38,793 nt of DNA from Streptomyces sp. (GTDB lineage Bacteria > Actinomycetota > Actinomycetes > Streptomycetales > Streptomycetaceae): NCBI RefSeq assembly GCF_031181555.1, contig NZ_JAPSKQ010000033.1:10126-48918 (forward strand). Direction: 5' to 3'. Shown one piece after another: positions 1-33,891 of the stretch. The notes beneath the pieces were generated by a model that worked only from the letters and a program-made list of their open reading frames with translations, ran no database searches and had not been told where the DNA came from. How positions within the stretch are numbered: position 1 is the stretch's first letter; each line of letters opens with the position of its first letter. A program made the translations under genes and the position numbers.

Positions 1-1734
1 GTGAGTCCGATGCGCCGCCGCCTGGGCCTGCTCATGGCCCTCGCGGTCATCCTGCTGTCGTTCGCCGGCATACCGGGCCCCCCGTCCGCCCACGCCGCCG
101 ACGCTCTGCTCTCTCGGGACAGACCGGTGACGGTTTCGTCCACGGAGAACCCGTTCGTCGGCGCCAACGCCGTGGACGGCGATCCAGGCACTCGCTGGTC
201 CAGCGAATTCGCCGACCCCCAGTGGATCCAGGTCGACCTGGGCGCTTCCGCCAAGATCAGCGAGATAGTCCTGAACTGGGAAGCCGCCTACGCCAAGGCA
301 TTCCAGGTGCAGGTCTCCGCCGACGCCCGTACCTGGTCCACGGTCCACGAGACCGCCGCAGGCACCGGGGGCAACCAGCGGCTGACCGTCTCGGGAACCG
401 GCAGGTACGTCCGCATGTACGGCACCGAGCGGGCCACCCCATACGGCTACTCCCTGTGGGAGTTCCAGGTGTACGGCACCATGGACAACGGCGGCGACCC
501 GGATCCCGGCCCCGGTGAGAAGCTGCTGTCCTACGGCAGGACCGGCACGGCGTCCAGCTCACAGAACGACGGTCACTGCCAGGAGTGCACCCCGGCCCGC
601 GCCTTCGACCGCGACCCCGCCACCCGCTGGGCGACCAGCCCCACGAACGGCTGGACCGACCCCGGCTGGATCTCCGTCGACCTGGGCGCGACGGCGCAGA
701 TCAGCAAGGTGGTGCTCCAGTGGGACCCGGCCTACGCCAGGTCGTTCCAGATCCAGGTCTCAGCGGACCACACGAACTGGACCCCGATCTACTCGACCAC
801 GGCCGGCACCGGGTTCAAGCAGACCCTGACCGTGTCCGGCACCGGCCGGTACGTCCGCATGTACGGCACCGAGCGGGCCACCCCGTACGGCTACTCGCTG
901 TGGGAGTTCCAGGTGTACGGCACCGGCGGAGACCCGCTCACCCCGCCCCCTGTGCCGCCCGACCCCGCCGACCCGCCCCGGATCGTCTGGCAGGACGAGT
1001 TCAACACCCCGGCGGGCACCAGGCCCGACCCGGCCAAATGGACCGCGGACCCGGGCACCGGCCACAACAACGAGTTGCAGTACTACACCGACAACGACAA
1101 CGTGAGCACGGACGGCGCGGGTCACCTCGTCATCGAGGCACGCAAGCGGGCCACCCCCGGTACGTCGTGCCCGACCGACCCGCTCACCGGAAGCGGCACC
1201 TGCCAGTACACATCCGCGCGGATCAACACCGGCAACAAGTTCGAGTTCACGTACGGCCGGGTCGAGGCGCGGATCAAGGTGCCCAAGGGCAACGGCCTGT
1301 GGCCCGCCTTCTGGATGATGGGTGCCGATTTCCTCGACGGCCGTCCGTGGCCGTACAACGGTGAGATCGACATCATGGAGATCCTCGGAAAGGACGTGAA
1401 GACCTCGTACTCGACCGTCCACGCGCCGGCGTACAACGGCGGCGGCGGGATCGGAGCGCCCTACAAGCTTCCGGGCGACGCCGACTACTCGGACGACTTC
1501 CATGTGTGGGCCGCCCACTGGGACAGCAAGGGCATCGTCTACAGCCTCGACGGCCGGACCGTCCTCACGCTCGACAAGGCCCGGATCGAACAGACCCGCG
1601 GTCCATGGGTCTTCGACCACCCCTTCTACCTGATCCTCAACCTCGCCGTCGGCGGCGACTGGCCCGGACCGCCCGACGCTTCGACCCCGTTCCCGGCGAG
1701 GATGCTGGTGGACTACGTGCGGGTCTACCAGTGA
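1..1734 (+). CDS. Secreted GH16 beta-glucanase with two F5/8C (discoidin-like) carbohydrate-binding domains
   Basis: 577 residues. A signal peptide fills about residues 1-32 (Arg-rich start, Leu/Ala core, A-H-A cleavage region). Two F5/8 type C / CBM32-like domains follow (about 35-160 and 172-308), then a Pro/Asp-rich linker and a C-terminal GH16 domain (about 325-577). The GH16 active-site motif EIDIME is present, placing the nucleophile at E455 and the acid/base at E460. The family endo-hydrolyses beta-1,3 or mixed beta-1,3/1,4 glucans, so an extracellular laminarinase-like role is likely; the exact substrate cannot be read from sequence. The GTG at position 1 opens the window, so its ribosome binding site cannot be checked; ATG at 10 is an alternative start. 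The two discoidin domains share an almost identical 33-residue end. The GH3 gene downstream suits a shared beta-glucan pathway. Confidence 0.93.
   Translation: MSPMRRRLGLLMALAVILLSFAGIPGPPSAHAADALLSRDRPVTVSSTENPFVGANAVDGDPGTRWSSEFADPQWIQVDLGASAKISEIVLNWEAAYAKAFQVQVSADARTWSTVHETAAGTGGNQRLTVSGTGRYVRMYGTERATPYGYSLWEFQVYGTMDNGGDPDPGPGEKLLSYGRTGTASSSQNDGHCQECTPARAFDRDPATRWATSPTNGWTDPGWISVDLGATAQISKVVLQWDPAYARSFQIQVSADHTNWTPIYSTTAGTGFKQTLTVSGTGRYVRMYGTERATPYGYSLWEFQVYGTGGDPLTPPPVPPDPADPPRIVWQDEFNTPAGTRPDPAKWTADPGTGHNNELQYYTDNDNVSTDGAGHLVIEARKRATPGTSCPTDPLTGSGTCQYTSARINTGNKFEFTYGRVEARIKVPKGNGLWPAFWMMGADFLDGRPWPYNGEIDIMEILGKDVKTSYSTVHAPAYNGGGGIGAPYKLPGDADYSDDFHVWAAHWDSKGIVYSLDGRTVLTLDKARIEQTRGPWVFDHPFYLILNLAVGGDWPGPPDASTPFPARMLVDYVRVYQ
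382..480 (+). repeat. Direct repeat copy 1 inside the GH16 gene
   Basis: This 99-base segment ends the first discoidin-like domain. It matches 826-924 at 93 of 99 bases, and all six differences are synonymous, so the 33 encoded residues are identical. Confidence 0.9.
826..924 (+). repeat. Direct repeat copy 2 inside the GH16 gene
   Basis: Second copy of the repeat at 382-480, offset by 444 bases (148 codons). It ends the second discoidin-like domain just before the Pro-rich linker to the catalytic domain. Domain duplication followed by gene conversion or strong selection would explain the identity. Confidence 0.9.
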
Positions 1735-2193
1735 CACGCCGTCCTTCATGATCGTCACCGGACGCCCCTCGACGGCTGTCAACGGCCCGCCGTCGAGGGG
1801 CACGGCCGAGCGGACGGGATCAGCGATCCCAGCCGAGATCCTCATGACAGCTTCAGTGCCGCCGTGCATCGATGCGAACGTGAGGGCGTGCTCTTCGTCC
1901 ACGGCGAGATTCTCCAGCGCTCCGTGGACGCCGGAAGGTGCTGCCGGTGGTGCGACGGTGCCGCCGTGGCGGCGGTCGACGTGCGGGCGACGAGCTGGGC
2001 TGCCGGAGGCCGAGAACCTGCTCGACCCGGAGCGTCCGAGCGGGGTGCCCCGCCGGGCGCGCCCACCGCGCCGAGTCGTTCGTCCAGCCCCCGGCGCCAT
2101 GCAGCGCCCTTCGGGGGCGACCGGCCGTCATGACCACCTCCTCTTCCTCTTCCACTCCCACCAGCGCCGACCGCGCCCCCGGAAAGGAACCCC
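1735..2193. other. 459-base intergenic region between GH16 and GH3
   Basis: It holds the hairpin at 1764-1801 and, at its right end, the GGAAAGGA ribosome binding site of the GH3 gene. In between, open frames exist on both strands but none has a recognisable domain or a ribosome binding site, so I call no gene. The GH3 promoter probably lies here. I saw no intact CebR-type TGGGAGCGCTCCCA box. Confidence 0.5.
1764..1801 (+). terminator. Strong hairpin downstream of the GH16 gene
   Basis: A perfect 13-base inverted repeat (GCCCCTCGACGGC and its complement) surrounds a 12-base loop, 29 bases after the GH16 stop. There is no U-tract, as is usual for Streptomyces terminators. Confidence 0.75.
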
Positions 2194-4482
2194 ATGCCCG
2201 CCCTCCCCTACCGCGACCCCACCCGACCGGTCCGCGAGCGCGTCGCCGACCTCCTCGGCCGTATGACACTGCCCGAAAAGGTCGGCCAGATGCTGCAGTT
2301 GAACGCGCGGGACGGAGTGCGGCACCTCGTCGAGGACCTCCACGCGGGGTCGGTCCTCCACGCCTCGCCCGCCCGGGTCGCCGAGGCCGTGGAGCTGGCC
2401 GCGCGCACCCGGCTGGGCATCCCCCTGCTCGTCGCGGAGGACTGCATCCACGGGCACTCCTTCTTCGAAGGCGCCACCGTCTACCCCACCCAGCTCGCCA
2501 TGGCCGCGACCTGGGACCCGGCCCTGGTGGAACGCATCGGCCGGGCGACGGCGGTCGAAGTCGCGGCGACCGGGGTGCACTGGACGTTCTCACCGGTGCT
2601 GTGCGTCACCCGGGACCTGCGCTGGGGCCGGGTGGGCGAAACCTTCGGTGAGGACCCGTACCTCATCGGCGAGCTGGCCTCCGCCATGGTCCGCGGCTAC
2701 CAGGGCGACGGGCTCACCGACCCCACCGCGATCCTGGCCTGCGCCAAGCACTTCGCCGGGTACTCCGAGACACAGGGCGGACGGGACGCCAGCGAGGCAG
2801 ACCTGTCCCGCCGCAAACTGCGCTCGTGGTTCCTGCCGCCGTTCGAGCGGGTCGCGCGGGAGGGCTGCCGAACGTTCATGCTGGGCTACCAGTCCATGGA
2901 CGGCGTCCCGATCACCGTCAACAAGTGGCTCCTCGACGAGGTGCTGCGCGGTGAGTGGGGCTACACCGGCACCCTGGTCACCGACTGGGACAACGTCGGA
3001 CGCATGGTCTGGGAGCAGAAGGTGTACGCCGACCACGCGCACGCCGCCGCGGCGGCGGTCCGCGCGGGCAACGACATGGTCATGGCCACGCCCCGGTTCT
3101 TCACCGCCGCGCAGCAGGCGGTCGCCGAGGGACTGCTGGAGGAAGCGGAGATCGACGCGGCGGTGACCCGGATCCTCACGCTGAAGTTCGAACTGGGCCT
3201 CTTCGAGGATCCCCGCCGCCCCGACCCCGCACGGCAGGCCGAGGTCGTCGGCCACCCCGACCACACGGAGCTCAACCTCGAGGCGGCGCGCCGCTCGCTG
3301 GTGCTGCTGACCAACGACGGCACGCTGCCGCTCGCCGGCGGACACGAGGCCGGGAAGGACGGACGCGCCGTCGCCCCCGCCGGCGCGGCGCCGCGCACCG
3401 TCGCCGTGATCGGCCCGAACGCCGACGCCGCCCAGACCCAGCTCGGCGACTGGGCCGGGAACTCCGGCCAGGCCGACTGGATGCCGGACGGCCACCCGCG
3501 TGAGAAGATCCGCACCGTCCTCGACGGCCTCCGCGAGCACGTGCCCGAAAGCTGGACCGTGGTCCATGCGCGCGGCGCGGACATCCTCGCCGTGGGCCCC
3601 GACCCGGAGGGCGCCTTCTTCCTCGACGGCCAGCCCCGGCCGGACATCGTGCTCCCGGCTCCGCCCGACGACGCGCTCATCGCCGAGGCCGTCGCCACCG
3701 CGGAGAGCGCCGACCATGTCGTGGCGGTCGTCGGCGACCGCGTCGAGCTGTTCGGCGAGTGCTGTTCGACCGCCACCCTGGAACTGGTCGGCGGCCAGGT
3801 CGCGCTGCTCGACGCGCTCGCCGCGACGGGCAAGCCGCTCGTCGTGGTGGTCGTCAGTTCCAAGCCGCTGGTCCTGCCGCCCGCCGCCCACAAGGCGGCC
3901 GCGATCGTGCAGGCGTTCAGCCCCGGCATGCTCGGCGGGCAGGCGGTGGCGGAGCTGCTGCTCGGCCTGATCGAGCCTTCCGGTCGGCTGCCGGTGTCCT
4001 TCGCCCGGCACGCGGGGCAGCAGCCGACGTACTACCACCAGATCCGCGGCCAGCACGGCACCCGCTACGCGGACCTGACGCAGCGTCCGGCGTTCGCGTT
4101 CGGAGAGGGGCTGAGCTACACGACCGTCGAGTACACCGACCTGCGCGTCCTCACCGGCACCGTCGGAATGTCCGACACCGTACGGGCCAGAGTCACCCTC
4201 TCCAACACCGGTCAGCGGCCCGCGCTGGAGACCGTGCAGGTGTACATCAGCGACACGATCACCTCCGTCACATGGGCCGAGAAGGAGCTCAAGGCCCACC
4301 AGCAGGTGCGACTCGCTCCGGGCGAGACCCGTGAGGTGCTCGTCGAGGTGCCGGTGCCGGCCTGCTCGCTGGTGGACGCCGAGGGCACCCGTGTCGTCGA
4401 GCCGGGGGCGTTCGAACTGCTCGTCGGCCCGTCGTCGCGGGACGAAGACCTGTTGCGGGCCGGCTTCGCCGTCAAGAGCTGA
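2194..4482 (+). CDS. GH3 family beta-glucosidase, cytoplasmic
   Basis: 762 residues. The N-terminal GH3 barrel has the KHF motif (K185, H186) and the nucleophile loop VTDWD with D264 as predicted nucleophile. A GH3 C-terminal alpha/beta sandwich spans about 360-640, followed by a fibronectin III-like domain (about 665-755). No signal peptide is visible, so it probably works in the cytoplasm on imported beta-linked oligosaccharides, releasing glucose from non-reducing ends. The ATG start follows GGAAAGGA at good spacing. Length and domain order fit the bgl-type subfamily with the FnIII-like tail. The secreted GH16 enzyme upstream would supply its oligosaccharides. Xylosidase or related specificities in GH3 cannot be excluded. 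Confidence 0.92.
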   Translation: MPALPYRDPTRPVRERVADLLGRMTLPEKVGQMLQLNARDGVRHLVEDLHAGSVLHASPARVAEAVELAARTRLGIPLLVAEDCIHGHSFFEGATVYPTQLAMAATWDPALVERIGRATAVEVAATGVHWTFSPVLCVTRDLRWGRVGETFGEDPYLIGELASAMVRGYQGDGLTDPTAILACAKHFAGYSETQGGRDASEADLSRRKLRSWFLPPFERVAREGCRTFMLGYQSMDGVPITVNKWLLDEVLRGEWGYTGTLVTDWDNVGRMVWEQKVYADHAHAAAAAVRAGNDMVMATPRFFTAAQQAVAEGLLEEAEIDAAVTRILTLKFELGLFEDPRRPDPARQAEVVGHPDHTELNLEAARRSLVLLTNDGTLPLAGGHEAGKDGRAVAPAGAAPRTVAVIGPNADAAQTQLGDWAGNSGQADWMPDGHPREKIRTVLDGLREHVPESWTVVHARGADILAVGPDPEGAFFLDGQPRPDIVLPAPPDDALIAEAVATAESADHVVAVVGDRVELFGECCSTATLELVGGQVALLDALAATGKPLVVVVVSSKPLVLPPAAHKAAAIVQAFSPGMLGGQAVAELLLGLIEPSGRLPVSFARHAGQQPTYYHQIRGQHGTRYADLTQRPAFAFGEGLSYTTVEYTDLRVLTGTVGMSDTVRARVTLSNTGQRPALETVQVYISDTITSVTWAEKELKAHQQVRLAPGETREVLVEVPVPACSLVDAEGTRVVEPGAFELLVGPSSRDEDLLRAGFAVKS

Positions 4483-12379: not shown

Positions 12380-13528
12380 TCAGGCGGCCCCCGCCGCGCT
12401 CCGTTCGGCGTCGCGGTCGTCGCGGTGGATCGGCACGCCCGAGCCGGTCAGCGGTACGCCCGTGCCGCCCCTGCGGGCCGCGACGATCTCCGCCGCGATG
12501 GACAGGGCGGTCTCCTCCGGCGTACGGGCGCCGAGGTCGAGGCCGATCGGGGACCTGAGCCGGGCCAGCTCCCGCTCCCCCACGCCCGCCTCGCGCAGCC
12601 GCCGCTCGCGGTCGGCATGGGTGCGGCGCGAGCCCATCGCCCCCACGAACGCCACCGGCATCCCCAGGGCGGTCTTCAGCAGGGGGACGTCGAACTTCGG
12701 GTCGTGGGTGAGCACGCACAGCACCGTGCGCGCGTCGGTCGTGGTGCCGCGCAGATAGCGGTGCGGCCAGTCGGCCACGATCTCGTCGGCCTCCGGGAAC
12801 CGGGCCCGGGTGGCGAAGACCGGGCGGGCGTCGCAGACGGTGACGTGGTAGCCGAGGAACCTGCCCGCCCGCACCAGGGCCGCCGCGAAGTCGATCGCAC
12901 CGAAGACGATCATGCGGGGCGGCGGCACCGAGGACGCGACGAACAGGGTCAGGCCGCCGGGGCAGTACGAACCGTCCGCGGACAGGCCGACCGTGCCGGT
13001 GCGCCCGCCGTCCAGCAGTGCCCGGGCCTCGGCCGCCGCCGTCCGGTCCAGCTCCGGGCGCCCGCCGAGGCCGCCCTCGTACGAGCCGTCCGGGCGGACG
13101 AACAGGGCCCCGCCGAGGAGGTCCGCCGGGCCCCGGACGACCCGGGCGAGAGCCCCCGGCTCGCCCCGGGCGACGGCCGGGAGCGCCTTGTGGAGCACCT
13201 GCCGGACGGGGGCGTGGGCACCGACCGGGGTCACCAGGACGTCGATGACCCCGCCGCAGGTCAGGCCGACCGCGAAGGCGTCCTCGTCGCTGTGCCCGAA
13301 CCGCTCGACGCGCGTCTCGCCGTCCTCGAGCGCCCGGACGCACAGCTCGTACACCGCGCCCTCCACGCAGCCGCCGGAGACCGAGCCGACCGCCGTGCCC
13401 TCGCGGTCGACGGCGAGGGCGGCCCCCGGGCCGCGCGGTGCGCTGCCGCTCACGGACACGACCGTGGCCACGGCGAACTCCCGGTCTCCGTCCAGCCATC
13501 CGCACAGCTCACCGGCGACGTCAAACAC
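12380..13528 (-). CDS. XdhC/PaoD family molybdenum cofactor maturation protein
   Basis: 382 residues. The N-terminal XdhC/CoxI domain carries VSGSAPRGPGAALAV and the conserved VSGGCVEGAVYE (about 35-65). A Rossmann-like XdhC C-terminal domain (VFGAIDFAAALVRAG, about 210-300) ends in the family block VGAMGSRRTHADR. Such proteins bind and load the mature molybdenum cofactor into xanthine dehydrogenase-type enzymes and are not part of the final complex. The start GTG at 13528 is preceded by a GGGGGG tract and overlaps the stop of the large subunit gene by 8 bases, so it is the last gene of the four-gene operon, as paoD is in E. coli. I see no sign of degradation. Confidence 0.9.
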   Translation of the reverse strand: MFDVAGELCGWLDGDREFAVATVVSVSGSAPRGPGAALAVDREGTAVGSVSGGCVEGAVYELCVRALEDGETRVERFGHSDEDAFAVGLTCGGVIDVLVTPVGAHAPVRQVLHKALPAVARGEPGALARVVRGPADLLGGALFVRPDGSYEGGLGGRPELDRTAAAEARALLDGGRTGTVGLSADGSYCPGGLTLFVASSVPPPRMIVFGAIDFAAALVRAGRFLGYHVTVCDARPVFATRARFPEADEIVADWPHRYLRGTTTDARTVLCVLTHDPKFDVPLLKTALGMPVAFVGAMGSRRTHADRERRLREAGVGERELARLRSPIGLDLGARTPEETALSIAAEIVAARRGGTGVPLTGSGVPIHRDDRDAERSAAGAA

Positions 13529-15653
13529 CCGGTCCCCCCGCCCGCAGCACCCGGTCCGGGCGGATGGGCAGGCTGCGGTGGCGCACGCCGGTCGCGTGCC
13601 AGACCGCGTTGGCGACGGCCGCCGCGGCGCCCACGACGCCGATCTCACCGATGCCCTTGATGCCGACCGGGTCGTCGGGGTCCGGGTCGTCCACCCAGTC
13701 CGCCTCGATCGCCGGTACGTCGGCGTGGGTGGCGATGTGGTAGCCGGCCAGGTCGGCGCCGTAGAGGCCGCCCGAGGCGTGGTCGCGGACCGCCTCCTCG
13801 TGCAGGGCCATGGAGATGCCCCAGGTCATGCCGCCGACGAGCTGGCTGCGCGCGGTGAGCGGGTTGACGATCCGGCCCGCCGCGAAGATCCCCAGCATCC
13901 GGCGCACCCGCACCTCGCCGGTGGTGACGTCCACGGCGACCTCGGCGAACTGCGCCCCGAAGGAGTGCCGCTCCTGCTGCGCGAGGGCCCCGAGGGCGGC
14001 GGTGGTGTCGGAGCGCACGGTGATGCCCTCCGGCGGCACGGCGGCTCCCGGCACGAGCCGGTCCCGCAGCTCCTCGGCGGCGGCGGTGACCGCCCAGGCC
14101 CAGGACCGGGTGCCCATCGAGCCGCCGGCGAGCCCCGCCGGGCCGAAGTCGCTGTCGCCGATCCGCACCCGGACCCGGTCGGGCGCCACCCGCAGCGCGT
14201 CGGCGGCGACCAGGGTGAGCGCGGTACGGGCCCCGGTGCCGATGTCGGCCGCGGCGATCCGCACGGTGAAGGTGCCGTCCGCCTGAGCGGTCACCGCGGC
14301 CGTCGCCGGGAGGGCGCCCGCGGGGAAGGAGGCGGCGGCCGTGCCCGTGCCGAGCAGCCGGCGTCCTTCGCGCCGTACGCCGGGGCGCGGGTCCCGGCCG
14401 GCCCAGCCGAAGCGGCGGGCGCCCTCGCGGAAGCAGGCGGCCAGGTTGCGGCCGGCGAACGGCAGCCCGGAGACCGGGCCCCGCCCGGGCTCGTTGCGCA
14501 GCCGCAGCTCGACCGGGTCGACGCCGCACCGCTCGGCGAGTTCGTCGAGCGCCGCCTCCAGCGCGAACGACCCCGGCGCCTCGCCCGGCGCCCGCATCCA
14601 CGTCGGGGACGGCACGTCCAGCCGTACGACCTCGTTCACCGTGCGGTGGGCGTCGGCGTCGTACATCACCCGGGCCGGTCCGGAGCTCGGCTCGACGAAC
14701 TCCCACACCGTCGACGTCTGGTTCAGCGAGCGGTGCTCCAGGGCGCGCAGCCGCCCGTCGGCGTCGGCGCCGAGCCGGATCCGCTGGGTGGTGGGACTGC
14801 GGTAGCCGGTGAGCGAGAACATCTGACGTCGGGTCAGCACGACGCGCACCGGGCGCCGCAGGGCGGTCGCGGCCATCACGGCGGCCACCTGGTGGGCCCG
14901 CAGGCCCTTGCTGCCGAAGCCGCCGCCGACGTGCTCGGAGCGCACCCGCACGGCGGACGGTTCGAGGGAGAACATCTTGACGAGCTCGTCGGCGATCCAG
15001 GTGGTGCCCTGGTTGGAGTCGACGACCTCGAGCCGGCCGCCGTCCCACAGGGCGGTCGCCGCGTGCGGCTCCATCATGGCGTGGTGTTCCTCGGGCGTGG
15101 TGTACTCCGCGTCCACCACGTGGGCGGAGGCGGCGAGTTCGGCCTCCAGGTCGCCCTTCTCCGTGGCGGCGGGCATGTGCCCGTCCGCCGGGTACGCGTC
15201 CGGGCGGCCGGCGCGGAACGCGATGTCGTGCGGCTGCCGTTCGTAGGTGACGACGAGCGCCTCGGCGGCCTCGCGGGCCTGTTCGGGCGTCTCGGCGACG
15301 ACGAGCGCGACGGGCCACCCGGCGTGCGGGATCCGGTCGTGCTGGAAGACGGCGGCGGTCGGGTCCGGCGGGACGCCCAGCATGCCGGTGTAGTCGGTGT
15401 CGACGCGCGGGGCGTTCCCGTGGTGCAGGACGGCGAGCACGCCCGGCATGCCGAGCACGTCGGCGGTCTCGACGGCGCGGATCCGGCCGCGGGCGACGGT
15501 GGACAGCACCAGCCGGCCGTGGGCGAGGTCCGCGAAGGGTATGTCGCCGGCGTACCGGGCGGCCCCGGTGACCTTGTCGCGGCCCTCCACGCGGGGGTGC
15601 GCGGTGCCGACGGCGCCGGCCGGCGCCGTACGGCCGGTCGTGGCGGTGGTCAT
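13521..15653 (-). CDS. Molybdenum-binding large subunit of a PaoC-like aldehyde/xanthine dehydrogenase
   Basis: 710 residues. The N-terminal aldehyde oxidase/xanthine dehydrogenase a/b hammerhead domain spans about 20-130, and the molybdopterin-binding domain follows (about 140-690) with EHVGGGFGSKG and PTWMRAPGEAPG. The catalytic glutamate is E670 in KGIGEIG near the C-terminus. It would hydroxylate an aldehyde or N-heterocycle at the Mo centre. The closest operon layout is E. coli paoABCD (periplasmic aldehyde oxidoreductase), so an aldehyde-detoxifying role is likely, but substrate is not proven. The ATG at 15653 follows GAGGAGG and overlaps the FAD subunit stop as ATGA. No signal peptide is visible. 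Confidence 0.92.
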   Translation of the reverse strand: MTTATTGRTAPAGAVGTAHPRVEGRDKVTGAARYAGDIPFADLAHGRLVLSTVARGRIRAVETADVLGMPGVLAVLHHGNAPRVDTDYTGMLGVPPDPTAAVFQHDRIPHAGWPVALVVAETPEQAREAAEALVVTYERQPHDIAFRAGRPDAYPADGHMPAATEKGDLEAELAASAHVVDAEYTTPEEHHAMMEPHAATALWDGGRLEVVDSNQGTTWIADELVKMFSLEPSAVRVRSEHVGGGFGSKGLRAHQVAAVMAATALRRPVRVVLTRRQMFSLTGYRSPTTQRIRLGADADGRLRALEHRSLNQTSTVWEFVEPSSGPARVMYDADAHRTVNEVVRLDVPSPTWMRAPGEAPGSFALEAALDELAERCGVDPVELRLRNEPGRGPVSGLPFAGRNLAACFREGARRFGWAGRDPRPGVRREGRRLLGTGTAAASFPAGALPATAAVTAQADGTFTVRIAAADIGTGARTALTLVAADALRVAPDRVRVRIGDSDFGPAGLAGGSMGTRSWAWAVTAAAEELRDRLVPGAAVPPEGITVRSDTTAALGALAQQERHSFGAQFAEVAVDVTTGEVRVRRMLGIFAAGRIVNPLTARSQLVGGMTWGISMALHEEAVRDHASGGLYGADLAGYHIATHADVPAIEADWVDDPDPDDPVGIKGIGEIGVVGAAAAVANAVWHATGVRHRSLPIRPDRVLRAGGPGV

Positions 15654-16642
15654 CGGGCGGCCTCCTCGGCGAGTTCGGACAGCACGGCCACCACGAGGTT
15701 GCGCATGAGTGTCACCTTGTATCCGTTGTCGGGCAGCGGCCTGGCCGCCGCCAGTTCGGCGTCCGCGGCCGCGGCGAAGTACTCCTCGTCGGCCGGGGCC
15801 CCGGTCAGGACGCGTTCGGCCGCCCGGGCCCGCCACGGCCGGGACGCCACCGCGCCGAAGGCCAGGCGTGCCTCGCACACGATCCCGTTGCTGACGTCGA
15901 GGGCGGCGGCGACCGAGCCGATCGCGAAGGCGTACGAGGCGCGTTCGCGGACCTTGCGGTAGCGGGAGCGGGCGGCGACCGGCGCGGGCGGCAGGGTGAC
16001 GCCGGTGACGAGCGCGCCGGCCGGCAGGGCGGTCTCCCGGTGCGGGGTGTCGCCCACGGGCAGGTAGAGGCCGTCGAGCGGCAACTGCCCCGGCCCGTCG
16101 GCCGTTTCGTACGAGACGACCGCGTCGAAGGCGGTCAGTGCCACCCCCATGTCGGACGGGTGGACGGCCACGCAGTGCTCGGAGGCGCCCAGGACGGCGT
16201 GGTTGCGGTGCTCGCCGGTGACGGCGGGGCAGCCGCTGCCGGGCACACGCTTGTTGCAGGGCCGGCTCACGTCGGCGAAGTAGCCGCAGCGGGTGCGCTG
16301 GAGCAGGTTGCCGCCGACGGTGGCCATGTTGCGCAGTTGCCCGGAGGCGCCGGCGAGCACCGCCTGGGCCAGGGCCGGGTAGCGGCGGCGGACCTCCGGG
16401 TGGGCCGCGAGGTCGCTGTTGGTGACGGTGGCGCCGATGCGCAGCCCGCCGTCGTCGGTCGGTTCGATCCGGTCCAGCGGGAGCCGGCGGACGTCGACGA
16501 GCCGGGCGGGGCGCTCGACGCCGGTCTTCATCAGGTCGACGAGGTTGGTGCCGCCGCCGAGGTAGCGGGCGTCCGGGTCGGCGCCGAGCAGTGCCACGGC
16601 GCCGGGGACGTCGTCCGCGCGCCGGTAGTCGAACTCCCTCAT
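15650..16642 (-). CDS. FAD-binding middle subunit, PaoB-like
   Basis: 330 residues of the CO dehydrogenase flavoprotein/xanthine dehydrogenase FAD family. FAD-binding motifs are ARYLGGGTNLVDLMK (about 26-40) and ATVGGNLLQ (107-115), and a CODH FAD C-terminal domain follows from about 220. After the GGN motif an insert carries C119, C129, C138 and C157, in the context RCGYF, PCNKR, PGSGC and EHC. In E. coli PaoB and in 4-hydroxybenzoyl-CoA reductase such an insert binds an extra [4Fe-4S] cluster, so this complex probably has three Fe-S clusters; whether all four cysteines are ligands is inferred. It passes electrons between the Fe-S subunit and FAD. Overlaps both neighbours as ATGA. Confidence 0.92.
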   Translation of the reverse strand: MREFDYRRADDVPGAVALLGADPDARYLGGGTNLVDLMKTGVERPARLVDVRRLPLDRIEPTDDGGLRIGATVTNSDLAAHPEVRRRYPALAQAVLAGASGQLRNMATVGGNLLQRTRCGYFADVSRPCNKRVPGSGCPAVTGEHRNHAVLGASEHCVAVHPSDMGVALTAFDAVVSYETADGPGQLPLDGLYLPVGDTPHRETALPAGALVTGVTLPPAPVAARSRYRKVRERASYAFAIGSVAAALDVSNGIVCEARLAFGAVASRPWRARAAERVLTGAPADEEYFAAAADAELAAARPLPDNGYKVTLMRNLVVAVLSELAEEAAR

Positions 16643-17196
16643 ACCGCCGCCTCCTCGGTCCCGGTCCGGGCCTGCGCGGCCGCGCGGGCGACGGCCTCGA
16701 CGATCGACGGGTAGGCACCGCAGCGGCAGAGGTTGCCGCTCATCCGCTCCCGGATCTCCTCCGGGGTCAGCGGCGGCGGTCCCGCTTCGGGCCGTATGTC
16801 GTCGGTGACGGCGCTGGGCCAGCCGGCGGCGTGTTCCTCGATGACGGCGAGGGCCGAACAGATCTGACCGGGCGTGCAGTAACCGCACTGGAAGCCGTCC
16901 AGGTCGAGGAAGGCCTGCTGCACCGGGTGCAGTCGCCCTCCCCCGGCCACGCCCTCCACGGTGGTGATCTCGCGTTCCTCGGCCGCGACGGCCAGGTGGA
17001 GGCAGGACACGGTGCGGCGGCCGTCGACCAGGACCGTGCAGGCTCCGCACTGTCCCTGGTCGCAGCCTTTCTTGGTGCCGGTCAGGTCGAGTCGCTCGCG
17101 CAGGACGTCGAGCAGGGTGGTGCGGTGGTCGACGGTCAGCGTGTGCTTCTCGCCGTTGATGTCCAGGGTGACGGTGCTGGACGTCGAGGGGGCCAT
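16639..17196 (-). CDS. [2Fe-2S] small subunit, PaoA-like
   Basis: 185 residues with two Fe-S domains. The N-terminal plant-type ferredoxin domain has C45, C50, C53 and C65 (GCDQGQCGAC and SC), and the C-terminal [2Fe-2S]-binding domain has C104, C107, C157 and C159 (CGYC and CRC). It carries electrons from the molybdenum site. E. coli PaoA is exported by a twin-arginine signal, but this protein starts MAPSTSSTVTLDI with no RR motif, so the complex is probably cytoplasmic. The ATG at 17196 follows GAAGGAAGG; a longer in-frame start (17289) would add an Arg/Pro-rich segment, is unsupported, and also shows no twin-arginine plus hydrophobic pattern. First gene of the operon, facing a TetR gene. 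Confidence 0.92.
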   Translation of the reverse strand: MAPSTSSTVTLDINGEKHTLTVDHRTTLLDVLRERLDLTGTKKGCDQGQCGACTVLVDGRRTVSCLHLAVAAEEREITTVEGVAGGGRLHPVQQAFLDLDGFQCGYCTPGQICSALAVIEEHAAGWPSAVTDDIRPEAGPPPLTPEEIRERMSGNLCRCGAYPSIVEAVARAAAQARTGTEEAAV

Positions 17197-17377
17197 GAGC
17201 AGCCTTCCTTCGCGGATCCGGGGCGTGTCGGGACGGCGTTCCGGACGGCGGGCGGGTCGGTGACGCGGGGGGCTGTACGGGACGGGCACGGTTCGGGAAC
17301 CATGCGGTCATGCGGGGCACGGGACGCGGCGGGCCGTGGCGCCGGGCGTGCGGGCCCGCCGATACGATGGGCCGAAG

Positions 17378-28064: not shown

Positions 28065-29477
28065 ATGTCCCATCCGGCAGGTGGCTCTCTCGAGCCGCGT
28101 ACCGCCGTCACGGAAGCCGATGCGGAAGCCCTGGTGCGGGGCATCTGCTTCAAGACCGGACCGCCGCGCCGCCTCGGAGTGGAGGTGGAATGGCTCGTCC
28201 ACGAGCCGCGTGACCCGCGGCTCCCCGTGTCACCCGAACGACTCGGAGCGGCCTACGCCGCCCTGCGGACCGTGCCCCTGAGGTCGGCGCTCACCGTCGA
28301 GCCCGGCGGCCAGCTGGAACTGAGCTCGCCGCCCGCCGCCTCACTGATGGAGTGCGTCGGTACCGTCTCCGCCGACCTCGACGCCGCCCGCGCGGTGCTG
28401 CGCGAGGACGGCCTGGTTCTCGTCGGTCTCGGCCACGACCCCTGGCAGGCGCCGCGCCGGTTCCTGCGCGAGGCGCGCTACGACGCCATGGAGGCCTGTC
28501 TCGACCGCACCGGCCCCGCCGGCCGCGCGATGATGTGCGCCTCCGCCTCCGTGCAGGTGTGCCTGGACGCCGGGTACGAGGAACCCGGTCCCCTCGGCCA
28601 CGTACGGCGCTGGTGGTTGGCGCACCAGCTGGGCGCGGTCCTGGTGGCCGTGTTCGCCAACTCCCCGATCGCCGGTCACCGGCCGACCGGATGGCTGTCC
28701 ACGCGGCAGCTGCGCTGGGCGCAGATCGGCACCGGCCGGGCGGGCGGCCCCGCGCTGGACGCCGACCCGCGCGGCGCCTGGGCCCGGCACGTCCTGGACG
28801 CGCCGGTGATGTGCGTACGGCGGGACGGCGGGCCGTGGGACGTTCCGGAGGGGCTGACCTTCCGGGAGTGGACCAGGTCCGGCTTACCCAGGCCGCCGAC
28901 CCGGGAGGACCTCGACTACCACGTCACGACGCTGTTCCCGCCGGTCAGGCCGCGCGGTCACCTGGAACTGCGCATGATCGACGCGCAGCCCGGCGACGAC
29001 GGCTGGATCGTGCCGCTGGCGGTGACGGCGGCGCTGTTCGACGACCCTGAGGCCGCCGAGACCGCCTACCGGGCGGTGAAACCACTGGCCGAGCGGACCC
29101 ACGGCATGCCCGCGCCGCACAATCCGCTGTGGCGGGACGCGGCCCGTGCCGGGCTGGCCGACCCGGAGCTGCGCGAGGTGGCCGCCACGTGTTTCGCGGC
29201 GGCGCTGCGGGCCCTGCCCCGGATCGGCGCCACCACCGGGGTCACGGACGCGGTCGCGGCGTATCACGACCGCTACGTCGCCCGGGGCCGCTGCCCGGCG
29301 GACGACCTGCTCGACGACCTGCGCGACGGCCTGTTCGACGGCCTGCGCGGCACCCCGGACGACGGCCGTCCGCACGAGGCGGCCCGCGGCACCGACGGCA
29401 CCCCCGTGTCCGGCGCGCACCCACCCGCCCGCCCTCCGCACGGCACGCACCCGCACCGGAAGGACATCCGCCCATGA
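28065..29477 (+). CDS. egtA: EgtA: glutamate-cysteine ligase of ergothioneine synthesis
   Basis: 470 residues of the glutamate-cysteine ligase (GCS2/EgtA) family, with RLGVEVEWLV near the N-terminus, LTVEPGGQLELSSPP, MCASASVQVCLDAG and GHLELRMIDAQ. It makes gamma-glutamylcysteine, the sulfur donor for EgtB. The ATG at 28065 follows AGGAGG; ATG 28038 just upstream is also in frame but without a ribosome binding site. Codon 274 (28884-28886) is TTA, the rare leucine codon read only by bldA tRNA in Streptomyces. The C-terminus is a long His/Pro-rich tail (from about 440) that is probably unstructured. It is the first gene of egtABCD and overlaps egtB as ATGA. Confidence 0.95.
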   Translation: MSHPAGGSLEPRTAVTEADAEALVRGICFKTGPPRRLGVEVEWLVHEPRDPRLPVSPERLGAAYAALRTVPLRSALTVEPGGQLELSSPPAASLMECVGTVSADLDAARAVLREDGLVLVGLGHDPWQAPRRFLREARYDAMEACLDRTGPAGRAMMCASASVQVCLDAGYEEPGPLGHVRRWWLAHQLGAVLVAVFANSPIAGHRPTGWLSTRQLRWAQIGTGRAGGPALDADPRGAWARHVLDAPVMCVRRDGGPWDVPEGLTFREWTRSGLPRPPTREDLDYHVTTLFPPVRPRGHLELRMIDAQPGDDGWIVPLAVTAALFDDPEAAETAYRAVKPLAERTHGMPAPHNPLWRDAARAGLADPELREVAATCFAAALRALPRIGATTGVTDAVAAYHDRYVARGRCPADDLLDDLRDGLFDGLRGTPDDGRPHEAARGTDGTPVSGAHPPARPPHGTHPHRKDIRP

Positions 29478-30790
29478 CCGACCCCGCCCTCGACGCCGAA
29501 GCCCTGCGTGAGCGCGCGGTCGCCTCGCTGGTCACCGCGCGGGACCGCACCACGCTGCTGACCGGCTGCCTCGACGAGCCCGACCTGACCGCGCAGCACT
29601 CGCCGCTGATGTCCCCGCTGGTGTGGGACCTCGCGCACATCGGCAACCAGGAGGAGCAGTGGCTGCTGCGGGCCGTCGCCGGCCAGGAGGCGATACGGCC
29701 CGAGATCGACAGCCTCTACGACGCCTTCGAGCACCCGCGCGCCGAACGCCCGAAGCTGCCGCTGCTGCCACCGGACGAGGCCCGCCGGTACGCCGCCGAC
29801 GTGCGCGGCCGGGCGCTGGACGTACTGGAGAACGCCGCGTTCCACGGGACGCGGCTGACGGAGGCGGGCTTCGCCTTCGGGATGATCGCGCAGCACGAGC
29901 AGCAGCACGACGAGACCATGCTGATCACGCATCAGCTCCGCAGGGGCCCGCAGGCCCTGAACGCCCCGGACCCGGATCCGGTGCCGCTGTTCACCGGCCC
30001 GTCCGAAGTCCTCGTCCCGGGCGGCCCGTTCACCATGGGCACCTCGACCGAGCCGTGGGCGCTGGACAACGAACGCCCCGCGCACCGGCGCGAGGTGCCG
30101 CCCTTCTCCATCGACACCACCCCGGTGACGAACGCCGCCTACCAGGCGTTCATCGAGGACGGCGGCTACGACGACCCGCGCTGGTGGACCGCGGACGGGT
30201 GGGCCCACATCCGCCGCAACTCCCTCACGGCACCGCTGTTCTGGCGCCGTGACGGCCGGCAGTGGCTCCGTCGCCGGTTCGGTGTCACCGAGGTCGTGCC
30301 GCCCGACGAGCCGGTGCTGCACGTGTGCTGGTACGAGGCCGACGCCTACGCCCGCTGGGCCGGGCGGCGGCTGCCCACCGAGGCCGAGTGGGAGAAGGCG
30401 GCCCGCTACGACCCGGCCGGCGACCGCTCGACGCGCTACCCGTGGGGCGACGCCGACCCCGGTCCCGAGCACGCCAACCTCGGCCAGCGGCATCTGCGTC
30501 CCGCGCCCGCCGGGAGCTACCCGGCCGGTGAGTCACCGCTCGGAGTACGGCAGTTGATCGGTGACGTGTGGGAGTGGACGGCGAGCGACTTCCTGCCGTA
30601 CCCGGGATTCCGGGCGTTCCCGTACAAGGAGTACTCGGAGGTGTTCTTCGGGCCGGAGTACAAGGTGCTGCGCGGTGGTTCGTTCGCCGTGGACCCGGTC
30701 GCCTGCCGGGGTACGTTCCGCAACTGGGACCTGCCGATCCGGCGGCAGATCTTCTCCGGGTTCCGCACGGCGCGCTCGGAGGACGTCTGA
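29474..30790 (+). CDS. egtB: EgtB: ergothioneine sulfoxide synthase
   Basis: 438 residues. The N-terminal DinB-like four-helix domain has the three iron-binding histidines: H55 in [14 protein letters not shown], and H141 and H145 in [10 protein letters not shown]. The C-terminal FGE-sulfatase-like domain (about 170-435) has [32 protein letters not shown] and VLRGGSFAV. EgtB is a non-haem Fe(II) enzyme that joins gamma-glutamylcysteine to trimethylhistidine (hercynine) with O2. Length is as in mycobacteria. The start overlaps the egtA stop as ATGA, and the stop overlaps egtC by one base (TGATG), so translation is coupled. Confidence 0.96.
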
Positions 30791-31653
30791 TGTGCCGACA
30801 CGTGGCGTACGTGGGGCCCGAGGAGCCGCTCGGCAGGCTGCTCGTGGAGCCGCCGCACGGCCTGTACCGCCAGTCCTGGGCCCCCCGGAGACAGCGGTAC
30901 GGGACGGTCAACGCCGACGGCTTCGGCGTGGGCTGGTACGCGCAGGGCGATCCGGTGCCGGCCCGCTACCGCAGGGCCGGGCCGATCTGGGCGGATCTGT
31001 CGTTCGCGGATCTCGCCCGGGTGGTCCGCACCCGGGCGCTGCTCGCCGCCGTACGGGACGCGACGCTGTCGGGCGCGGACGCGGAGGCCGCGGCGGCGCC
31101 GTTCGCCGCGGGAACCTGGCTGTTCAGCCACAACGGGGCGGTCCCGGGCTGGCCGGGCTCGCTCGCGCCCCTCGCCTCGGGCCTGGCCGCCGAGGACGTG
31201 CTGTCGCTGGAGGCCCGCAACGACTCGGCGTTCGTGTGGGCCCTCGTGCTCGCCCGCCTGCGTGCCGGTGTCCCGGAGGGGCGGGCGCTGGCCGGCACGG
31301 TCCTGGAGGTCGCCGCGGCGGCCCCCGGCTCCCGGCTCAACCTGCTGCTCACCAACGGCGACACCGTCACCGCGACGGCCTGGGGCGACACGCTGTGGTA
31401 CCTCACCCGGCCCGGTGGCGGCACCGTCGTGGCCTCCGAGCCGTACGACGACGATCCGCACTGGCGCGAGGTCCCCGACCGAACCCTGCTGGCGGCGAGC
31501 CGCACGGACGTGCTGCTGACCCCGGTCGGGGAGCCCCTGCCGGAGGAACCGGCGCCCGGCCCGCCCCCGTTCGACGCCCCCTTGACCGAGGAGCCCGGCG
31601 ACGCCCCGGAGCCCGCCGACGCACCCGCCCCCGCGAAGGAGCCCCTCACGTGA
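30790..31653 (+). CDS. egtC: EgtC: gamma-glutamyl amidohydrolase of ergothioneine synthesis
   Basis: 287 residues of the class II glutamine amidotransferase-like Ntn-hydrolase fold. Cys2 follows the initiator Met (MCRHVAYVG), giving the N-terminal nucleophile after Met removal; [11 protein letters not shown], then FSHNGAVPG and [13 protein letters not shown] are other family blocks. It removes the gamma-glutamyl group from the sulfoxide made by EgtB. The last ~45 residues are a Pro/Glu/Ala-rich tail that is probably disordered. The start (TGATG) and stop (GTGA with egtD) overlap the neighbours. Confidence 0.95.
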
Positions 31654-32612
31654 GTCCGTTCGCCGTCACCCGCACGCTGCCCGAGGACGCCACCGGCGCC
31701 GCACTGCGCGCCGACGTCCTCGAGGGTCTGAGCGGCAGCCCCAGGACGCTGCCGCCCAAGTGGTTCTACGACGCGCACGGCAGCGAGCTGTTCGAGAGGA
31801 TCACCACGCTGCCCGAGTACTATCCGACGCGCGCCGAACGCGAGATCCTCCTCGCCCGCTCGGGTGAGATCGCCGCGGCCTCCGGCGCCCGCACCCTGGT
31901 CGAACTGGGCTCCGGTTCCTCGGAGAAGACGCGGTACCTGATCGACGCCCTCACCGGTCTGCGCACCTACGTCCCCGTCGACGTCAGCGAGAGCGCCCTC
32001 ACCCGGGCCGGACAGGCGCTCGTCGCCGAGCGGCCGGGGCTGGACGTGCACGCGCTGATCGCCGACTTCACCGCCCCCCTGACGCTGCCGGGGACACCGG
32101 GGCCGCGGCTGGTGGCGTTCCTCGGCGGCACGATCGGCAATCTGCTGCCCGCCGAGCGTGCCGCGTTCCTCGCCTCGGTCCGTGGCCTGCTCGCGCCGGG
32201 CGACGCCCTGCTGCTGGGCACGGACCTGGTGAAGGACGAGCGGGTGCTGGTCCGGGCGTACGACGACGCGGCCGGGGTGACGGCCGCCTTCAACAAGAAC
32301 GTCCTGACCGTGATCAACCGGGAGCTGGGCGCCGACTTCGATCCGGCCGCCTTCGACCATGTGGCGCTGTGGGACGCCGGGCAGGAGTGGATCGAGATGC
32401 GGCTGCGCTCCCGTCTCGCGCAGACGGTGAAGGTCCCCGCCCTCGATCTCGCCGTCGACTTCGCGGCGGGCGAGGAACTGCGCACCGAGGTGTCGGCGAA
32501 GTTCCGGAAGGAGGGGGTGCGCGCCGAACTGGAGGCCGCGGGGCTGGAGCCGGCCCGGTGGTGGACCGACGACGCGGGGCGGTTCGCGCTGTCGCTGAGC
32601 GTCGTGCGCTGA
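31650..32612 (+). CDS. egtD: EgtD: histidine N-alpha-methyltransferase
   Basis: 320 residues of the EgtD family. It starts [20 protein letters not shown], has [18 protein letters not shown] and the SAM-binding motif [11 protein letters not shown] (about 88-98), then [10 protein letters not shown] and [18 protein letters not shown]. The enzyme trimethylates histidine to hercynine using three SAM. Its length matches the mycobacterial enzyme. The GTG start overlaps the egtC stop. No egtE-like PLP lyase gene follows; the next gene is on the other strand, 19 bases after the stop. Confidence 0.96.
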
Positions 32613-32631: not shown

Positions 32632-33891
32632 TCACCCCGGATTGAAGTCCAGGGTCTCGGTGATGCGCCGCGAGGCGCGTGCGGCCTCCGTCGCCGGGTC
32701 GGCCCCGGTGAGCACCTTGGTCATGTACTCCTTGATCGGGTTGTCGGCCTCGACCTCGCCCCACTCGGGTGTGATGGGGGTCGCCCGGCCCTGTGCGGCT
32801 CCGGCCGCCATGGCCGCGACCCCCTCCTCCCCCGCCACCGAGCCGGCGAGCTTCGCCTTGTTGGGGACGTAGTTCATGGTGCGGGCCAGGTCGGTGTTCC
32901 ACCGGGCCCCGGTGAGCGCGGCGACGACCTCGACGGCCCCCTCCCGGTTGTCGGTGTTCACCGGGACGACGAGGTCGGAGCCGCCCGTGAAGACGGCACC
33001 GGGCTCGTCGGCGGTCCGGCCGGGGACGGGGAAGTAGCCCAGTTCGTCCTCGAGTTCCGGGTTCTGTTTGACGATGGCCCGCGCGAGCCCCGGCACGGCC
33101 ACGATCTGCGCGACCCGGCCCTCGGCGAACACGCCCGCCTGCGGCGGGTGTTCCTCGTCGGCGTCGACCGGTCCGTCGCCGAGGGCCTGCAGCCGGCGGT
33201 AGAAGTCCATCCCGCGCAGCGCCGCGGGACTGTCCAGGGTGCCCCGCCAGACGCCGTTCCGCTCCTTGGCGAGGTCTCCGCCCTCCTCCCAGATGAATCC
33301 GGCGAGCGTGTACCAGTCCTGTCCGGCCAGGTAGATGCCCTGGTTCCCGCCGGTGTCGAGCTTCTCGGTGACGGCGAGCCACTCGTCGCGGGTCTTCGGC
33401 GGGGCGGTGATGCCGGCCTGCCGGAAGAGGTCCTTGCGGTAGATGACGACGCGGTTGGCGGCGTACCAGGGGATGCCGTACTGCTGGGTTCCCCACCGTC
33501 CCGGTTCGGCGAGGCCGGGCAGCCAGTCGTCGCGGCCCCAGTCGCGCATCGACTCCAGGGTGAGGTCGAGCAGCCCGTCGCCCTCCGCGTACTGGGCGAC
33601 CTGGGTGTTGCCGACCTCGATGACGTCGGGGCCGTCTTCCCGCGGGGTCTCCAGCGCCGTCTGCACCTTCTCGCCGATGCCGGTCCACTCCTGGATGCGG
33701 ATGTCGAGGTCGAGGTCGGGATGGGTGCGCTCGAAGTCCTCGGTGAAGCGGTCCAGGAACTCCTGCGAGGCGCTGTGCCGCATCAGCCACACGGTGACCG
33801 TGTGCCGTTCGGTTCCGCCGCCGGGCATCAGGCCGCAGCCGGTGAGGAGGGATGCGGATACGCAGACGAGGGCAAGCAGACGGCGTCTCAC
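32632..33891 (-). CDS. DasA-like sugar-binding lipoprotein of an ABC transporter, orphan
   Basis: 419 residues. The lipoprotein signal is short (MRRRLLALVCVSASLLTGCG) with lipobox LLTGC, lipidated C19. Characteristic solute-binding blocks match DasA-like proteins: QEWTGIGEKVQTALE, DVIEVGNTQVAQYA, VFTGGSDLVVPV, MNYVPNKAKLAGSVAG and ADNPIKEYMTKVL. DasA binds N,N'-diacetylchitobiose, so a chito-oligosaccharide ligand is likely but not proven. GTG 33891 follows AGGA at 6 bases. No permease or ATPase gene is nearby, so it must share components with a transporter elsewhere. The promoter carries a DasR-like palindrome. It faces the dodecin gene. Confidence 0.88.
   Translation of the reverse strand: MRRRLLALVCVSASLLTGCGLMPGGGTERHTVTVWLMRHSASQEFLDRFTEDFERTHPDLDLDIRIQEWTGIGEKVQTALETPREDGPDVIEVGNTQVAQYAEGDGLLDLTLESMRDWGRDDWLPGLAEPGRWGTQQYGIPWYAANRVVIYRKDLFRQAGITAPPKTRDEWLAVTEKLDTGGNQGIYLAGQDWYTLAGFIWEEGGDLAKERNGVWRGTLDSPAALRGMDFYRRLQALGDGPVDADEEHPPQAGVFAEGRVAQIVAVPGLARAIVKQNPELEDELGYFPVPGRTADEPGAVFTGGSDLVVPVNTDNREGAVEVVAALTGARWNTDLARTMNYVPNKAKLAGSVAGEEGVAAMAAGAAQGRATPITPEWGEVEADNPIKEYMTKVLTGADPATEAARASRRITETLDFNPG

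Follow-up and report, generated by a model that had tools for sequence, protein, structure and literature searches.

A TTA codon in the ergothioneine gene egtA of a Streptomyces is probably a chance codon, and a TTA near the gene start in another branch is a likelier place for developmental control

Codon 274 of egtA in the Streptomyces genome examined here, a TTA, is probably a chance codon, a private change kept by drift where the sequence is free to vary, and it probably has little effect on the timing of ergothioneine synthesis. A TTA codon is commonly taken to indicate developmental control. A simple test can be put to any such codon: is the codon kept in relatives, is its position free to vary, and does its occurrence rise above the background? 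By this test codon 274 is poor evidence for such control, and the same search turned up a better candidate, another TTA in egtA at codon 26 in a different branch of the genus, which is the likelier place for it.

The egtABCD locus and its TTA codon

The window, a stretch of 38,793 nucleotides from a Streptomyces sp. (contig NZ_JAPSKQ010000033.1 of assembly GCF_031181555.1), carries on its plus strand egtA (28065..29477), the glutamate-cysteine ligase gene of ergothioneine biosynthesis, whose 470-residue translation scores 487.6 bits against TIGR03444 (curated cut-off 370.8). The ATG at 28065 is supported by homologues that start at the same place; our home-made, codon-usage-based caller, which finds 38 genes that together span 85% of the window, sets a later start at 28134, and the TTA codon is the same with either. 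A sequence-only reading had held that the TTA at 28884..28886 is codon 274 of egtA, that it has no in-frame counterpart among its neighbors, and that egtA heads an overlapping operon. Each of these points is borne out: the codon is in frame with the ATG at 28065 and is the sole in-frame TTA among the 38 genes of this caller, and egtA is followed on the same strand by egtB (29474..30790; TIGR03440, 457.8 bits, cut-off 360), egtC (30790..31653; TIGR03442, 308.5 bits, cut-off 218.65) and egtD (31650..32612; TIGR03438, 376.4 bits, cut-off 290.9). The egtA stop and egtB start share ATGA (29474..29477), the egtB stop and egtC start share TGATG, and the GTG start of egtD overlaps the egtC stop in GTGA, which suggests a single egtABCD transcript. 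As in known ergothioneine clusters (TIGR03444, 03440, 03442, 03438), the four genes stand in order, overlap and exceed the family cut-offs; the cluster differs from these in nothing found, and the codon alone is unusual.

Elsewhere in the window, egtD is immediately followed, on the opposite strand, by a gene for an extracellular solute-binding protein (32632-33891, minus), genes with the molybdopterin-binding and FAD-binding domains of molybdopterin dehydrogenases occupy 13521-17320 (minus), and 1-4482 (plus) encodes a GH16 protein containing two F5/8 type C stretches and then a GH3 glycosidase.

Codon 274 among relatives and the background of TTA genes

Conservation of the codon in related species had been proposed as a check, and its outcome goes against a developmental role. 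From 269 egtA loci, the window included, we obtained 220 distinct genes and kept 219, one (L299) being dropped for low coverage before tree building. Across these 219 genes the codon-274 column holds 33 states (GCG 59, GTG 29, CTG 20, TCG 17, one gap), with TTA occurring once, in the window, and in none of the 218 other distinct genes. In a set of 136 loci (80 named relatives and 56 more), the site encodes Ala in 51, Val in 29, Thr in 17, Ser in 12, Leu in nine (CTG or CTC), Gly in five, Arg in five, Glu in two and His in two, with a gap in four and TTA in none, and the 80 named relatives have no TTA anywhere within the compared part of egtA. The position accommodates 12 different residues, and a two-residue deletion falls there in six of 38 aligned proteins (P0007, P0017, P0018, P0019, P0032 and P0042, from S. 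fungicidicus and its kin). A DNA pattern with TTA at this site, whose flanks fit 97 of the 136 egtA genes and which therefore reaches about 7 in 10, matched only the window's own genome among the 392 of the genus.

At codon 274 the two nearest relatives carry GTG (Val); compared with the nearest, this is one of five doubly changed codons among 457, codon 270 being another. The sequence-only reading had itself named absence from close relatives as evidence against its proposal, and that absence is what we find, at the level of sequence only. The codon also lies deep in the gene, 274 of 470, whereas streptomycete TTA codons are reportedly biased towards the gene start (PMC4255298). As with bldA-dependent TTA genes, a high-GC gene here has TTA in frame, and the genome encodes tRNA-Leu(TAA). 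In contrast, adpA, the type example of TTA genes, has a TTA in all 14 Streptomyces genomes tabulated in PMC4255298 (Table 2), whereas the egtA TTA is private at codon 274 and mainly confined to one branch at codon 26. That adpA control was taken from the publication instead of from the window's own genome, where a search of 12 of 18 PF01965 matches and five more stretches gave no clear adpA with TTA.

The background rate bears on the same point. If a mean of 177 TTA ORFs per genome is taken as about 2.5% of the genes of a member of the genus, the probability of at least one TTA gene in 38 is 0.62. In 38 other stretches of the window's genome, TTA occurs in 4 of 476 called genes (2/258 in 18 stretches, mostly around tRNA genes, and 2/218 in 20 more), and at this rate 38 genes would include one or more with a probability of 27%; since the home-made caller may miss low-GC genes, this background would, if anything, be too low. 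A single TTA gene in the window therefore needs no explanation. Across Streptomyces genomes the reported number of TTA ORFs ranges from 51 to 505, with the mean of 177 used above, and most are described as little conserved (PMC10327506). Leaving aside codon 26 and the window, six of the 219 distinct egtA genes have single TTAs scattered at other places (L309, L314, L317, L336, L350 and L365), approximately the genus average per gene. An enrichment of TTA in the egt genes of relatives was considered and rejected: egtA has it in 2/136, egtB in 1/136, egtC in 0/131 and egtD in 0/78, against 5/877 other genes, the latter called in 109 loci and still including the egt genes of 17 minus-oriented loci; the TTA at codon 26 emerged only in a wider search. 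The sole egtB TTA of the 136 relatives is at aligned position 160 in Streptomyces tendae JCM 4610 (L042).

Decoding of UUA and the weighing of explanations

The bldA-type tRNA, on which the sequence-only reading relies, has its gene in this genome. The draft assembly (328 contigs, 86.8% complete) contains one tRNA-Leu(TAA) gene of the bldA type (L121 10519-10605), and the other Leu anticodons in the scanned stretches are TAG, GAG (two) and CAG, in a scan of 45 of the 56 tRNA matches, the remaining 11 all being of 70-75 bases. By wobble rules and this tRNA set, UUA would be read solely by tRNA-Leu(TAA), and full-length EgtA should need the bldA-type tRNA. A UUA codon with scarce tRNA is expected to slow ribosomes, which may have some effect on EgtA timing; in S. 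griseus at the transition phase, TTA is reported to show the highest ribosome pausing of the 61 codons (PMC8914203). In S. coelicolor, the pair SCO6638/SCO6637 resembles egtABCD in having TTA in the first gene and an overlapping stop and start, and deletion of bldA reportedly abolishes the SCO6638 product and lowers both RNA and protein of SCO6637 (PMC2000904). There the downstream fall was measured; together with the pausing in S. griseus, it makes polarity across egtABCD possible by analogy, in that ribosomes held up at codon 274 would reduce EgtB to EgtD as well. We take the tRNA supply to be sufficient in normal growth and the effect on timing to be probably small.

The same genome encodes three further full-length GCS2 proteins, besides one match that is weak and partial. 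The three (L162, L163 and L164) are carboxylate-amine ligases of the YbdK type, from the same Pfam family (GCS2) as EgtA; they exceed the TIGR02050 (YbdK type) and NF010041 cut-offs and reach just 26-27 bits with the EgtA model, whose cut-off is 370.8. As judged from family membership, they could in principle supply gamma-glutamylcysteine and bypass EgtA.

Among the explanations for the codon at 274, drift at a free position is favored because the column is hypervariable, TTA is absent from it in relatives, and the two nearest carry GTG. This reading has to contend with two facts: GTG to TTA takes two substitutions over a short distance, and a near-identical EgtA (P0002) keeps Leu274, which argues that the TTA is not a last-minute mutation. 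The same protein bears on whether the codon is a sequencing or assembly error at 28884-28886. The draft state of the genome would allow for one, but P0002, which differs by a single residue (at 219) and comes with a longest contig of 572 kb against the window's 48.9 kb, also has Leu274 at the protein level, and two bases rather than one separate the codon from the GTG of the nearest relatives, so that an error is hardly probable at all. The opposite proposal, with which the sequence-only reading began, is that selection placed the TTA as a bldA switch delaying EgtA and, by polarity, EgtB to EgtD until late growth. Much speaks for it, namely the codon, its gene, the overlaps, its being the sole in-frame TTA of 38 called genes and lying in the first of four overlapping ones, the tRNA-Leu(TAA) gene, the published SCO6638/SCO6637 precedent and the TTA pausing in S. 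griseus. The developmental switch itself does not follow: with the codon missing from the 218 other distinct egtA genes, at a hypervariable position, far from the start considering the reported bias, and at a frequency the background would supply, we regard selection for a switch at codon 274 as very unlikely.

A TTA near the start of egtA in another branch

Two of the 136 loci (L152 and L160) have TTA at a common other site, in the stretch DLLRGICFK near the egtA start, which we refer to as codon 26; its aligned counterpart in the window is codon 23 of egtA, a CTG at 28131..28133 on the plus strand. A pattern for this TTA matched 22 of the 392 genus genomes. Each of the 22 matches is in frame, in a gene that has both the EgtA start motif and an EgtA tblastn match, and most lie 25 or 26 codons after an ATG. 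With two carriers among the same 392 genomes that the pattern missed (L281, which is genome G359, and L333, which is G138), the number of Streptomyces genomes with this TTA rises to at least 24. With starts chosen by script, the TTA of the 24 distinct carriers is at codon 26 or 27 in 21 and at codon 14 or 21 in three, lying towards the gene start as the reported bias would have it. One of these 24 distinct loci is L231, with the codon at 1501-1503. The order egtA, egtB, egtC, egtD recurs in ten stretches measuring 10 to 18 kb, of which nine have the TTA and one lacks it; the last three genes are free of TTA wherever they were matched (in L319, the end of egtB alone was matched).

In a FastTree tree of the 219 egtA genes, 21 of the 24 distinct carriers group in a single, fully supported (1.0) branch of 35 genes, the other 14 of which have CTG (eight), CTA (four), TTG (one) or CTC (one); the three carriers outside it are L226, L242 and L333. 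Our trees are egtA gene trees rather than species trees, and carriers are over-represented in them, having been fetched by their TTA, so that the unselected figure is the 22 of 392 found by pattern. An earlier tree of 179 genes required nine changes of TTA state, against a mean of 22.1 and a minimum of 19 in 200 shuffles; since related sequences share codons by descent, this control shows inheritance, not selection. Among the 23 carriers then known, a median of 43% of four-fold sites differ and protein identity goes down to 65%, and from this divergence the codon-26 TTA is either old or gained repeatedly. Parsimony on the 179-gene tree gives three gains and six losses at equal cost, two gains and seven losses with gains at twice the cost, and no gain and 12 losses with gains costing three or five times as much as losses. 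The age of the codon is therefore not fixed; it is probably ancestral to the branch of 35 distinct genes, in 21 of which it is found. Among the best 120 proteins listed near one branch member, the named ones are from S. atratus, S. brevispora, S. laculatispora, S. microflavus, S. anulatus, S. atroolivaceus, S. cyaneofuscatus and S. griseus, a proximity at the protein level.

Retention of the codon was assessed with a two-state model, in which loss rates are expressed per four-fold substitution per site and compared by 2dlnL. TTA at codon 26 is lost at a rate of 0.91 (profile roughly 0.4 to 1.9), and faster loss is found for A-ending codons pooled over 111 four-fold columns (4.0, 2dlnL 21.8), for CTA, TTG and CTT at other Leu columns (7.1, 5.1 and 5.0), for TTG over 35 columns (5.5, 36.2), and for AGA (3.9, 20.6), TTT (3.0, 13.0), CAA (10.5, 70.3) and AAA (1.9, 4.2). 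The codon thus outlasts most rare synonymous codons severalfold, but not uniquely: loss is no faster for GAA (1.14, 2dlnL 0.3), one TTG column (0.86) and five TCA columns (0.88), among 25 single A-ending columns with ten or more carriers each the slowest reaches 1.01, and ATA is lost more slowly than TTA (0.33, 4.6), mostly at one column four codons downstream of codon 26. Considering that GAA, TCA, one TTG column and ATA are equally slow or slower, selection for the codon-26 TTA is suggested at most, and the neighborhood of codon 26 may be under nucleotide-level constraint for another reason. The ATA, a rare Ile codon, at the downstream site is common to 23 of the 219 distinct egtA genes.

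How far do the two codons belong together? One possibility is that egtA is a repeated bldA target, for which codon 26 and the window's codon 274 are parallel solutions. The number of genomes with the codon-26 TTA, its presence in 21 of 35 genes of one branch and in three carriers elsewhere, and its slow loss relative to the pooled A-ending codons all point that way, but the six scattered TTAs in other egtA genes make codon 274 resemble scatter, and retention at codon 26 is ordinary when set against GAA, the TCA columns, the TTG column and ATA, so we consider a shared explanation quite unlikely. Unlikely as a whole, too, is the scenario in which ergothioneine in one branch came under bldA control through a codon-26 TTA that was gained before the branch split, mostly kept and regained elsewhere, with the window's codon-274 TTA arising later and separately. 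If ergothioneine did come under bldA control at codon 26, the likely mechanism is that ribosomes slow down or stop some 26 codons into egtA, the first gene of the operon, for as long as the bldA tRNA is low. A genus-wide redox buffer would then be coupled to development in that branch but not in the rest.

The literature searched contains no report of a codon-26 TTA in egtA and nothing joining ergothioneine with 'TTA codon', or 'TTA codon' with Streptomyces and glutamate-cysteine ligase; work joining ergothioneine and bldA is on other matters, judging by titles and abstract openings. egtA is not among the frequent TTA genes of Table 2 in PMC4255298 or the 11 conserved TTA sites of PMC10327506, and ergothioneine is absent from the main text of both. 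Ergothioneine in S. coelicolor is the subject of Nakajima et al. 2015, as cited by PMC12313630 and PMC11993508.
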